Part shown: one piece after another, positions 14,357 to 52,598 of the stretch
How the letters are laid out: each line of letters opens with the position of its first letter
Position numbering within the stretch: the first letter of the stretch is position 1
Translations under genes and position numbers: made by a program
Notes under the pieces: model-generated
What the model was told of the DNA's origin: nothing
The model's database searches: none
Seen by the model: only the letters and a program-made list of their open reading frames with translations
Virus record (IMG/VR): IMGVR_UViG_3300020156_000445
Coordinates: 1 to 53,512 of that record
Reading direction: 5' to 3' (one strand)
Length of the DNA stretch: 53,512 bases
DNA from: a virus

Positions 14357-14491
14357 ATGGGCAAGCTCACCTGCCTCAAGCCCCGCGTCGCCACCCTTGA
14401 CCCGCACACCGGCACCGCGGTGGCGCCGCTATCGCCCGAGGAAGCCGAGCGGGACCGGAAGCGAAGTGGCCGATGCTCGCCATCAACATAA
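14357..14491 (+). pseudogene. Short remnant resembling the N-terminus of a phage HNH endonuclease
   Basis: This 44-codon open frame starts at ATG 14357 and begins MGKLTCLKPRVATLD. That pattern of Lys-Leu-x-x-Leu-Lys-Pro-Arg opens many small phage HNH endonucleases encoded just before the terminase genes. The rest of the HNH domain is absent. The frame ends by overlapping the next gene by 19 nt. Either it is a deleted HNH gene fused onto the following gene region or a real small protein. Confidence 0.35.
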
Positions 14492-15129
14492 AGGCTGACC
14501 TGACCCCGCTGCTGCGGTCCCTCGACGACTTCGCCCGACAGCAGGCACCGTTCGCCACGGCCAAGGCGCTGACCGCCGTCGCCAGGAGGGTCCAGGAAGC
14601 TGAGGTCAAGGCCTTCAGCGACGTCTTCGACCGCCCGACGCTGTTCACCCAGCGCTCGGTCGGGGTGAAGGCCGCGCGCAAGACCAGCCTGACCGCCGTG
14701 GTGTTCGTGAAGGACATCGCCGCCCGATACCTGCTGCCCTTCGAGGATGGCGGGAAGCACTTCCTGCCCCCGAGCAAGCGCGGCGGCACGCTGTTCAACC
14801 CGAAGGCCGCGCCGGTCAACCAGTACGGCAACCTCGCCAAGGGCACGCTGCGGCGCCTCGCCGGCCGCCAGGACGTGTTCGTCGGCGCCGTGCGGACCAA
14901 GGGCGGCACCACCATCAACGGCGTCTGGCAGCGTCCGGCGGCCGATGGAGCGCGGGGGCGCGGCTTGAACCGGACGGGCAGCCTGAAGCTGCTGGTGCGC
15001 TTCGGCGACGCCCTGCCGGTCAAGCAGCGCCTCGGCTACCGCGAGCGGGCGAAGGCGGTGGTGCAGGCCAGCCTGCAGGCCGAGTTCGACGCCGCCATGG
15101 GCGAGGCGCTGCGGACGGCCCGCCGGTGA
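14473..15129 (+). CDS. Minor tail Z-like / tail completion-type protein
   Basis: This is a 218-residue basic protein. The pattern of an N-terminal helical region with AKALTAVARRVQEAEVKAF, a central RSVGVKAARKTSL segment and a conserved KDIAARYLLPFEDGG region resembles the prophage minor tail Z (lambda gpZ) family, which helps join tail to head. The ending with HTH-like LQAEFDAAMGEALR is also in keeping. Its place upstream of the terminase genes rather than in the tail operon is unusual, so the family call is moderate. It is the first complete gene after the leader region. Confidence 0.5.
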   Translation: MLAINIKADLTPLLRSLDDFARQQAPFATAKALTAVARRVQEAEVKAFSDVFDRPTLFTQRSVGVKAARKTSLTAVVFVKDIAARYLLPFEDGGKHFLPPSKRGGTLFNPKAAPVNQYGNLAKGTLRRLAGRQDVFVGAVRTKGGTTINGVWQRPAADGARGRGLNRTGSLKLLVRFGDALPVKQRLGYRERAKAVVQASLQAEFDAAMGEALRTARR

Positions 15130-15149: not shown

Positions 15150-15359
15150 CGCAACATTGTTGCGTGGGTCCTTCCTGAGGGGGGAAGGACCCACGGGCAT
15201 TGCGCACCGCGGGTTCTCCCTCGCGCTGGGCAAAAAAAACGCGTTACACGCTCACGTTACACGCTCCCGCGCGGAGGCCAAGCGGAGCGAAATCAATGGC
15301 TTCATCGTCCAAGCGTGTAACGCCGCCGGGTCCGGACGTTACACGGCCGCGTTACACGG
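15150..15359. promoter_or_regulatory. Candidate packaging (cos or pac) site
   Basis: Immediately before and into the small terminase gene lie a 15-bp dyad CGCAACATTGTTGCG (15150-15164) and a 13-bp-stem hairpin (15163-15175 with 15183-15195, loop of 7). Five copies of CGTTACACG follow: direct at 15242, 15255, 15337 and 15350, and inverted at 15314-15322. The direct copies come in pairs exactly 13 bp apart. In lambda the cos site with its gpNu1-binding repeats sits at the same place relative to the terminase genes. Confidence 0.6.
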
Positions 15360-15934
15360 TGGGCAAGGCGGAGCTGGCGAACGCGCTGGGGTGGACGCGG
15401 CCCAAGCTGGACCGCCGCCTCGACTCCGACCCGACCTTCCCCGTCGTCACACGCGGCACGCGGGCCGGCGGCTGGGAGTTCGACTTGGAGGCCGTGCGCG
15501 CCTACCTCGCGGGGGAGGCGCCGCCGGCGCCCGCCGCCAAGGCCGCCGCCGCGCGGCCGGCGCCAACGCCGCGGGCGGCGCGGGCGGAGCCGCCAGCACC
15601 GCCGCCGGAGGCCACGCCCGGGACGACGGCGAAACCCTCGGCGCCGGCCGCGCACGCCGGCGAGGGCACGGCCAAGCAGCGCAAGGACAACGCCCAGGCG
15701 GCCATGCTCGAGGACAAGCTGCGCCTGTCCCGGAAGGAACTGGTGGAGGCCGAGGAGATGCGCACCGTGCTCGCCACCATGCTGGCGCACCTGTCCAAGG
15801 GCGTCGACGGCATCCCGGTGCTGATGCTCAAGCGCCTGGGCCTGCCCGAGGACGCGCTGCCGGTGCTGCGCGAGATCGTCGACGACGTGCGGTCGCAGAT
15901 GGTCCTGGACCTGCGCAAGGTGCTGAACGGATGA
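15296..15934 (+). CDS. Terminase small subunit (DNA packaging, Nu1-like)
   Basis: This 212-residue protein has an N-terminal HTH region (GKAELANALGWTRPKLDRRLDS, about 20-41) for recognition of the packaging site. A long Ala/Pro-rich linker occupies about 70-115. The C-terminal helical domain (KQRKDNAQAAMLEDKLRLSR onward) is for assembly with the large subunit. This is the domain plan of lambda Nu1 and relatives. The start at 15296 avoids a longer frame that would run through the repeat region. The stop overlaps the large subunit start by 4 nt (ATGA). CGTTACACG repeats flank and enter the first codons. Confidence 0.8.
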   Translation: MASSSKRVTPPGPDVTRPRYTVGKAELANALGWTRPKLDRRLDSDPTFPVVTRGTRAGGWEFDLEAVRAYLAGEAPPAPAAKAAAARPAPTPRAARAEPPAPPPEATPGTTAKPSAPAAHAGEGTAKQRKDNAQAAMLEDKLRLSRKELVEAEEMRTVLATMLAHLSKGVDGIPVLMLKRLGLPEDALPVLREIVDDVRSQMVLDLRKVLNG

Positions 15935-17982
15935 CCTGTGAATACGCCAGCGCCCGGGGCATCGCCGCCGACACGCTGTCGGTGCTGCTGCCGCCCGAGC
16001 GCATGACGGTCGCGGCCTTCGCGGAGAAGCACCGCCACCTCGCCAACGAGGGCGGCGGCTACGTCGGCAAGTGGCGCAACGATCAGGTGCCCTACCTGGT
16101 CGAGCCCATGGAGTGCCTGACCTCGCTGGACCACCTGACCGTCGCCGTGGTCGGGCCCGGCCAGTCGGCCAAGACGACGATCGCCGAGAACTGGCTGCTG
16201 CATTCGGTCGCCTCCGACCCCGCCAACCTGCTGTGGTTCATGCAGACCGACCAGTCGCTGGAGGCCTACGTCAAGCAGCGCATCAATCCGATGATCGATG
16301 CGCACGAGGGGATGCGGTCCCGGCTCGGCACCCGCCCGGTCGACGACAGCCTGCACTTCAAGAACTTCCGCACCATGCGGGCGGAATTCCTGCCGGCGAC
16401 GCGCTCCAACCTGATCAACAAGTCGGCGCCGCGCATCGTCGCCGACGAGATCGACGCCTACGGCGAGCTGGGCGACATCAAGGCGCTGCTCGACATCCGC
16501 CGCCAGACCTTCGGCAGGCAATCGAAGATCCTCGCGGTCAGCCACCCCGACAAGGCCCGCGGGCTGAACCCGCTGCGCGACTGGACCGCCGGCATCATGG
16601 CCATGTACGCCGACAGCGACCGGCGCCTCTGGTACTGGCCGTGCCCGCGCTGCGGCGCCTGGTCGTCGCCGGCGCCGATCGCCAAGCGCGTGATGGTGCT
16701 GGACTACCCCGAGGAGGGCACGCTGGACGAGATCGAGGCGGAGGCGCGGCTGCTCTGCCCGGTCGGCGACTGCCGGATCGAGGACGCCCGGCGACGGGAG
16801 ATGAACGCCGCCGGCCGCTGGATCGGCGACGGCCAGACCATCGCCGAGGACGGCACGGTGACCGGCGAGCGGGTGCGGCGCACCACCGCCGGCTTCTGGA
16901 TCACCGGCACCATGAGCCCCTTCGTGCTGGGCGGCATCGGCGCGCTGGCCCGCGCCAGGGCCAAGGCCGAACGGGAACGGGAGATCTCGGGCGAGGACGA
17001 GACGCTGCGCCAAGTGATGGTGAAGCAGTTCTGCATCCCCTACGCGCCGCCGCGCGCGGTCAGCCTGCTGCTGGCCGACGACATCGCCGAGCGCGCCGAC
17101 GTGCGCCTGCGCCTCGGCGAGGTGCCGGAGGGGGTGCGGTTTCTGACCGCCTTCTGGGACGTGCAGATCGCCCACTTCGACGTGGCGGTCCGCGGCTGGG
17201 GGGTGAACGGCGAAAGCTGGGTCATCGACCGCTTCCGGGTGTCCGGCGACCCCGCCACCACGCCGGAGGACTGGGACCAGCTGCTGGACAAGGTCGTGTT
17301 GCGCACCTACCCGCTGGCCGACGGCTCCGGCCGCCGCATGAGGATCCGCGGCACCGGCTACGATTCGCAGGGCGCGCCCGGCGTCAGCCAGCAGGCCACC
17401 GACGCCTGGACGCGCTGGCGCAAGGCCAAGGTGGTGAAGCTCCACGGCCAGATCGCCGGGCGCGACGTCTACTCGGTCATCCCGACCAAGGGCGCCAGCG
17501 GCCTGATGGCGCCCCGGCTGAACGTCACCTACCCGGACACCGCCGGTGGCGGGAAGAAGGGCGGCGGCGCCGGCACGGTGCCGCTGGGGTTGTTCAACCC
17601 GAACTCCTTCAAGGACGACCTCAACGGCCAGCTGCAGAAGGCGGACGGCGGCCCCTGGTCGATCCACTTCCCCGCGGCGTTGCGCGCCAAGGTGCCGCCG
17701 CACCCCTGGTTCGAACAGCTCGTCGCCGAGGTCCGGCTGCCGAACGGCCGCTGGGAGAAGGAAAACCGCTCCGCCCGCAACGAGGCGCTGGACGTCATGG
17801 TGGGCAACCACGTGGTGGCCCACCTGCACGGCCTGTCGCGGATCAACTGGGAGCGGCCGCCGGCCTGGGCGGCGCCGTGGGACACGAACGCGATGGTGAT
17901 CGCCGCCCCCGAGGACGAGGCGGCGCCGGCCGCACCGCCGGCCGCGCCGTCGCGGCCCAACCTTGCCAGCCGCCTGGCCTGA
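15931..17982 (+). CDS. Terminase large subunit, lambda gpA family
   Basis: This 683-residue motor and nuclease cuts concatemers and drives DNA into the prohead. The ATPase domain has Walker A in VVGPGQSAKTT near 75 and Walker B in RIVADEID near 170. A zinc-binding CPRCG...CPVGDC pair sits near 235-275. The C-terminal nuclease begins at FWDVQIAHFDVAVRGWG near 408, the gpA-family signature. A Pro/Ala-rich tail (last 30 residues) contacts the portal. Length and order match the GpA family (pfam05876). It overlaps the small subunit gene by 4 nt. Confidence 0.95.
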   Translation: MTCEYASARGIAADTLSVLLPPERMTVAAFAEKHRHLANEGGGYVGKWRNDQVPYLVEPMECLTSLDHLTVAVVGPGQSAKTTIAENWLLHSVASDPANLLWFMQTDQSLEAYVKQRINPMIDAHEGMRSRLGTRPVDDSLHFKNFRTMRAEFLPATRSNLINKSAPRIVADEIDAYGELGDIKALLDIRRQTFGRQSKILAVSHPDKARGLNPLRDWTAGIMAMYADSDRRLWYWPCPRCGAWSSPAPIAKRVMVLDYPEEGTLDEIEAEARLLCPVGDCRIEDARRREMNAAGRWIGDGQTIAEDGTVTGERVRRTTAGFWITGTMSPFVLGGIGALARARAKAEREREISGEDETLRQVMVKQFCIPYAPPRAVSLLLADDIAERADVRLRLGEVPEGVRFLTAFWDVQIAHFDVAVRGWGVNGESWVIDRFRVSGDPATTPEDWDQLLDKVVLRTYPLADGSGRRMRIRGTGYDSQGAPGVSQQATDAWTRWRKAKVVKLHGQIAGRDVYSVIPTKGASGLMAPRLNVTYPDTAGGGKKGGGAGTVPLGLFNPNSFKDDLNGQLQKADGGPWSIHFPAALRAKVPPHPWFEQLVAEVRLPNGRWEKENRSARNEALDVMVGNHVVAHLHGLSRINWERPPAWAAPWDTNAMVIAAPEDEAAPAAPPAAPSRPNLASRLA

Positions 17983-51764: not shown

Positions 51765-51945
51765 TTTGTGAAGCTCGTTACGTTACACGATGACTGCTAT
51801 CATAGAATTCCCGATCTATCTATTCCATTTTGAAGTGCTCCGTCCTACTGCTTGCCATGGGGTAAATCTGTCGGCTGAGACATCGGCTCAATTTTGAGCG
51901 CATGTTCGGGGCCGCTGGGCCGGCCGGGACATCAACCCTATTTTG

Positions 51946-52122: not shown

Positions 52123-52431
52123 ACGGCCGGCAGAGATTCCCGTGCACCGCAGCAGGTGCCCTGGAATCCCAAGGGGCCAGCGCCCGACGTCACCGGGGTA
52201 TCCCGGCGACCCGATCGCGGCGGCCGGGGTTCATGGGAAACCCCATAGACCCGCTGGCGGAATTTCGCGTTACGCACGACGTGTAACGCGCCGTAGATCA
52301 TGGGGCGGCTGCGGGCCTGCGCCGCCTCGGCAGGACGGGGATGCGCGACGTATGCCGGTGACAGGGTGACGATTCGACGCGCTAACCTGCCCGTCTACGA
52401 ACGCTCGTGTTCGCCTTCGTTCGGATGGAAA

Positions 52432-52508: not shown

Positions 52509-52522
52509 TGGCGGATGGGGTG
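52509..52522. repeat. attR: tRNA-Ser 3' end
   Basis: TGGCGGATGGGGTG is identical to 6883-6896. Here it belongs to the intact tRNA gene, so the phage lies on the 3' side of the tRNA and the tRNA remains whole. Confidence 0.85.
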
Positions 52523-52598
52523 GGATTCGAACCCACGGTAGGCTCGCACCTACGGCGGTTTTCAAGACCGCTGCCTTAAACCACTCGGCCACCCATCC
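52509..52598 (-). tRNA. tRNA-Ser (anticodon TGA)
   Basis: This is a 90-nt gene on the minus strand. The acceptor stem GGATGGG pairs with CCCATCC, followed by discriminator G and encoded CCA (52511-52509). The anticodon loop CTTGAAA gives TGA, reading UCA codons. A long variable arm typical of tRNA-Ser follows, and the T-arm has GGTTCGAATCC. Its 3' end is the attachment core of the prophage. It lies 95 bp upstream of the stop codon of the HD-GYP gene. Confidence 0.96.

Follow-up and report, generated by a model that had tools for sequence, protein, structure and literature searches.

The window analysed here is a 53,512-base virus record, a prophage, in which the gene for the small terminase subunit (TerS) is followed by genes for a large terminase (TerL) of the lambda gpA type, gpW, a lambda-type portal protein and a capsid-E major head protein. 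The large terminase matches the Pfam families GpA_ATPase (3.8e-55) and GpA_nuclease (1.9e-57). Five exact copies of the word CGTTACACG, one of them inverted, precede and enter the TerS gene, and in both direct pairs the copies stand 13 bp apart, start to start (Table 1). A sequence-only reading of this DNA had described just these repeats, with this spacing and orientation, and our analysis bears it out: one pair lies 5' of the TerS start and the other three copies lie inside the gene. The window as a whole holds seven copies of CGTTACACG where 0.19 would be expected, and that number was reached in none of 100 shuffles. Near the right end of the prophage, short motifs around CCAGATCTGG occur several times between positions 51900 and 52130, close to the tRNA-Ser gene; a search for an att repeat found no 14-mer that the window's first 6 kb share with its last 3.5 kb.

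Table 1. Features of the window and of its candidate packaging site. Numbering in bp takes position 15196 as bp 1.
Feature	Position	Strand	bp	Remarks
Window (prophage)				IMG/VR record IMGVR_UViG_3300020156_000445
cosQ counterpart GGGTCCTTCC	15166–15175	+		lambda: GGGTCCT; first G 30 bases before predicted nick
cosQ-to-cosN spacer	15176–15195			holds an inverted cosQ copy, GGAAGGACCC, in the window phage
cosN counterpart CG|GGCATTGCGCAC|CG	15194–15209			by homology to BZS1 virion ends
Predicted 12-nt 5' cohesive end GGCATTGCGCAC	15196–15207, ±1 base			BZS1 call would give 15197–15208
A-tract, 8 A	15232–15239	+		between cosN and first repeat
R3 counterpart, CGTTACACG doublet	15242–15250 and 15255–15263	+	47–55 and 60–68
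R2 counterpart, single inverted CGTTACACG	15314–15322	−	119–127	inside TerS gene
R1 counterpart, CGTTACACG doublet	15337–15345 and 15350–15358	+	142–150 and 155–163	inside TerS gene
Small terminase TerS (P0001), 212 aa	15296–15934	+		PHROG terminase small subunit families 141 and 57
TerS regions				structure model: unstructured N-tail (its DNA holds R2/R1), winged helix-turn-helix (~residues 20–75), disordered linker, helical C-terminal part
Large terminase, lambda gpA type	15931–17982	+		ATPase and nuclease (Pfam)
tRNA-Ser gene	52509–52598			near right end of prophage window

Relatives of the small terminase (48–67% identity), taken from viral and bacterial genomes, keep the repeats, and nearly all of them also keep GGGTCCTTCC, about 20 bases, CGGGCATTGCGC[A/G]C and then an A-tract. 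The most conserved parts of the region are not ones that had been listed before: they are GGGTCCTTCC at 15166–15175 and CGGGCATTGCGCACCGCG at 15194–15211, which we treat as counterparts of the cosQ and cosN sites of lambda. Scanning viral contigs with the pattern GGGTCCTTCC N5-35 GGGCATTGCGC located this cosQ–cosN element in at least 119 viral stretches and, among the matches listed, the whole element measured 37 to 40 bases, mostly 40. Variants of cosN with other bases after TTGC appeared in the searches as two and one matches, and a locus without cosQ and with a different spacing (L180) was taken as a chance match. Among 385 alphaproteobacterial genomes the exact element was found only in the starting genome. 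As for the repeats themselves, we rejected the idea that they are a host motif, pairs of CGTTACACG being absent from 43 of 45 Azospirillum genomes; in the two genomes that have them they occupy six places, each either at a cos or some 3 kb 5' of it. Elsewhere in viral contigs such pairs stand mostly in unrelated contexts that have no cosQ–cosN element.

A comparison with lambda's own sequence found GGGTCCT near the lambda right end also, and we take this 7-mer to be cosQ. In 98 loci having the cosQ–cosN element, which form our comparison set, the distance from cosQ to the predicted nick is 30 bases in 70 loci, 29 in 23 and 28 in four, cosQ being absent from one; it is 30 bases in the window and in lambda and 31 in the record of Serratia phage vB_SspM_BZS1. 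Published work describes cosQ as a highly conserved 7-bp site and states that CG flanks both nicks in lambda-like cosN (PMC4669245). The cohesive end of the window should therefore be GGCATTGCGCAC, at 15196–15207, with predicted cuts at about 15195/15196 and 15207/15208.

Phage BZS1 carries the cosQ–cosN element and its genome record starts inside it. Its virion DNA is reported to have 12-nt 5' cohesive ends, GCATTGCGCGCC, as determined with PhageTerm together with a junction PCR comparison (PMC7556043). It resembles the window in cosQ, in nearly all of the cosN sequence, in the distances, in its gpA-type TerL and in having a TerS of phrog_57, but its repeat word is GGTAACA rather than CGTTACACG and the DNA-binding domain of its TerS is a different one. 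It is through this relative, by homology, that the ends of the window phage would be 12 nt long and of 5' polarity. Another phage with a mapped cos, VarioGold, was rejected as a match, since it has unrelated 10-nt 3' ends.

These observations move the predicted cut away from where it had been sought. The sequence-only reading had proposed a cohesive site at 15150–15164, on a 15-bp dyad, with a 13-bp-stem hairpin as a further part; homology to BZS1, whose mapped ends fall in the cosQ–cosN element instead, and the 30-base distance of lambda place the cut some 30–45 bp downstream. Both structures exist exactly as described. The dyad is a 7+1+7 palindrome, CGCAACATTGTTGCG, yet palindromes of its size are about as frequent in shuffled sequence (the window has 34; shuffles average 24 and reach at most 34) and it is not conserved, for which reasons we rejected it as the cut site. 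The hairpin pairs 15163–15175 with 15183–15195 across a 7-nt loop; its left arm contains cosQ, its right arm is an inverted cosQ copy and the stem ends at the predicted nick. Two stems of this kind occur in the window and none in 10 shuffles, but the inverted cosQ arm is unique to the window among the 98 loci and no T-run follows the hairpin, so that we rejected this candidate as a functional element too. That the dyad is cut, with the hairpin taking part, is in our judgement extremely improbable. What survives of the lambda-like order suggested earlier is a cos site next to TerS, with the repeats as the counterpart of cosB; neither the dyad nor the hairpin belongs to its conserved parts.

The same evidence bears on a headful pac site, at which TerS would bind the boxes near its own gene, the cut would be imprecise and the virion DNA permuted. 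Pac sites in or near terS are possible, as in P22 and SPP1 (summarised in PMC4669245), but here the large terminase is of the gpA type, almost every base of cosQ and cosN is conserved and their spacing is fixed, and the cohesive ends of BZS1, which has this element too, are fixed and 12 nt long. We hold a headful site to be a very remote prospect. The region 15150–15359 is very probably the cos packaging site of an Azospirillum-type prophage.

Across the 98 loci the cosQ–cosN element is nearly constant while the repeat word varies with the DNA-binding domain of TerS. Five words, CGTTACAC, GGTAACA, TGTCCCA, TGTCCGCA and TGTTCGCA, occur at bp 46–50, and the first box lies there in 91 of 92 loci despite the five different words. 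A test blind to the word, requiring only a 7-bp direct repeat starting at bp 44–51, was positive in 86% of loci against a background with a mean of 0.9% and a maximum of 5.1%. When the TerS DNA-binding domains were clustered at 60% identity, each cluster had one word (33 loci with TGTCCCA, 31 with GGTAACA and 20 with CGTTACAC). This purity is in part a matter of descent, because word and TerS are adjacent and inherited together. Stronger evidence comes from recombinants, such as the pair L094 and L028, which match at 79 of 80 bases as far as cosN and carry different words beyond it, together with the fixed distances. None of the five words was found in six of the 98 loci, among which L041 has a close variant, GGTAACG, and L051 a different repeat. 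Almost no named phages with the other cassettes were present in 50,697 records. Two Azospirillum loci, L207 (G007) and L213 (G012), combine the common cosQ–cosN with two other TerS types, and their repeats are CTTAAC-like and GGTTCGCA-like.

The layout of the boxes was examined in the CGTTACAC class, which has 20 non-identical members. The first copy of the core GTTACAC is at bp 48 or 49 in all 20, and an inverted core lies at bp 109–120 in 18. The cos segment (the first 260 bp) carries 17.3 boxes per kb and the rest of these loci 0.034 per kb, a difference of about 500-fold. In the first 60 terS codons of the class there are 50 boxes, where shuffling of synonymous codons would lead one to expect 1.8 and gave at most 8 in 2000 trials. 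An A-tract of 6–9 A stands at the equivalent place in 20 of 20 members; it is possibly an intrinsic bend and may act as such. An IHF site corresponding to I1, between R3 and R2, is not conserved in the class: the window matches the IHF consensus at 12 of 13 positions at bp 96–108, and the other 19 members have 2–4 mismatches in differing places.

Could the boxes instead be operators, through which a phage regulator or TerS itself controls the terminase operon, plus an early gene in relatives? Clusters of boxes some 3 kb 5' of cos in Azospirillum relatives, lying before and into a DUF3164 gene and having no cosN, speak for such a role. Against it, the first box is fixed relative to the nick (bp 46–50), whereas among members of the CGTTACAC class the TerS start ranges from bp 65 to 101; a different TerS domain goes with a different word; and the layout is that of R3, R2 and R1 in lambda. 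We therefore regard operators as a very unlikely account of the boxes at cos.

The order of the site in the window is cosQ, cosN, A-tract, R3 pair, TerS start, inverted R2 and R1 pair. Lambda shares with it cosQ GGGTCCT 30 bases from the nick, CG at both nicks, a gpA-type TerL, a winged-helix TerS and the gene order, and in both the TerS boxes run forward, inverted, forward at about bp 50, 115 and 155. The cores of the window are forward at bp 48 and 61, inverted at 120 and forward at 143 and 156; those of lambda (CGTTTCC) are forward at 53, inverted at 114 and forward at 155. R3 spans bp 50–65 in lambda and bp 48–60 in N15, which also has no IHF site between R3 and R2 (PMC9026076). The differences are as clear. 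The boxes of the window are 9-bp doublets with a word of their own, whereas lambda has single 16-bp R sites; R2 and R1 lie inside terS, the TerS start being at bp 101 and not at bp 191 as in lambda; and the window has an A-tract and no conserved IHF site where lambda has I1. The cohesive ends, GGCATTGCGCAC in the window and GGGCGGCGACCT in lambda, are identical at 3 of 12 positions. By the published definition, which requires cohesive ends similar to those of lambda, the window is not a lambda-like member; by architecture, with a 7-bp cosQ at a fixed distance and a complex cosB of three R sites of which R2 is inverted, its cos closely follows lambda. Phage 21, N15, Monarch and the Rpp-dependent cos of enteric PICIs likewise pair a conserved cosQ–cosN with a divergent TerS (or Rpp) site at about bp 48–65, and in N15, too, an inverted site lies within terS, but these have lambda-type cohesive ends and the lineage of the window has other ends and other box words. 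The cosN of lambda-like phages were reportedly surveyed by Vahanian et al. in 2017 (Virology 509:140), and the GGCATTGCGC cosN sequence may already have been described there.

The TerS protein (P0001) matches phrog_57 at 6.7e-13, as do lambda Nu1 (1.3e-76) and the TerS of BZS1 (1.2e-27). Lambda Nu1 matches the Pfam family Phage_Nu1 (PF07471); P0001 gave no match to it, its only Pfam hit being DUF1441, below the cut-off. No relative of TerS came up when solved structures were searched by sequence. The best fold matches of the structure model are the phage packaging domains 7lw0, 7lwr and 7lxs, with gpNu1 (1j9i) lower in the list; for 7lw0 and 7lwr the Z score is 6.8 and the Foldseek probability 1.00 over residues 20–75, with E-values of only 0.03. 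For the N-terminal tail of TerS the model predicts disorder, and the sequence of this tail varies except at residues that the boxes encode, consistent with a stretch retained for the sake of its DNA.

The sequence with its conserved parts, the constant distances, the way in which word and TerS domain vary together and the relative with mapped ends lead us to infer TerS binding, nicking and termination in the window phage as follows. The winged-helix domain of TerS would bind the CGTTACACG boxes, that is, the R3 doublet, the inverted R2 and the R1 doublet, and box-bound TerS would place the gpA-type large terminase over cosN. Nicking there would yield 12-nt 5' ends, GGCATTGCGCAC, and cosQ, GGGTCCTTCC, would serve the terminal cut. 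We have high confidence in reading the region as the lambda-like cos of a temperate phage, with TerS boxes as described; it would work as the cos of lambda does, though both its cohesive end and its TerS word differ. Directly 5' of cos lies a gene for a minor tail protein (phrog_1924, window 14473–15129), which would therefore come to stand at the extreme right of the genome once packaged. Sequence similar to window 14473–15129 precedes cos in L006 and L007 as well.

Taken together, these comparisons are best read as pointing to a variant lambda cos system in which TerS and its repeats form exchangeable cassettes. Three lambda-like packaging specificities (lambda, 21 and N15) had been documented by the time PMC4669245 appeared, and the co-variation of word and TerS predicts at least five further ones on one nearly constant nicking site. 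With at least five natural TerS–box pairs on a nearly constant cosQ–cosN, the code relating recognition helix to DNA word becomes testable by simple swaps, and the same swaps could test whether co-resident prophages and satellites are insulated from one another. In addition, the search string GGGTCCTT, about 20 bases, GGGCATTGCGC locates the probable genome termini in many prophages for which none are assigned at present. More speculatively, and with considerably less confidence, we suggest a widespread lineage with one nicking platform (cosQ and the GGCATTGCGC cosN) and at least five, probably more, mutually exclusive TerS–box cassettes, which would be swapped by recombination just right of the nick; co-resident prophages would thereby avoid cross-packaging, and box clusters away from cos would reflect a second, regulatory use of the TerS word.

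A second use is possible for the boxes that lie away from cos, both in the window and about 3 kb upstream in relatives. The upstream cluster of CGTTACACG in Azospirillum phages (L005:2942-3060; L195 and L200, both G012; and L196, G001:C1:268866), where there is no cosN, consists of a forward pair 22 bp apart and an inverted copy about 110 bp on, with a third copy in one prophage. It lies between a tyrosine recombinase gene and the DUF3164 gene and adjoins a small inverted repeat. In the window, two single copies of CGTTACACG stand near the right end of the prophage, at 51781–51789 (+) and 52280–52288 (−), and the latter is part of a near-palindrome, CGCGTTACGCACGACGTGTAACGCG, at 52268–52292.
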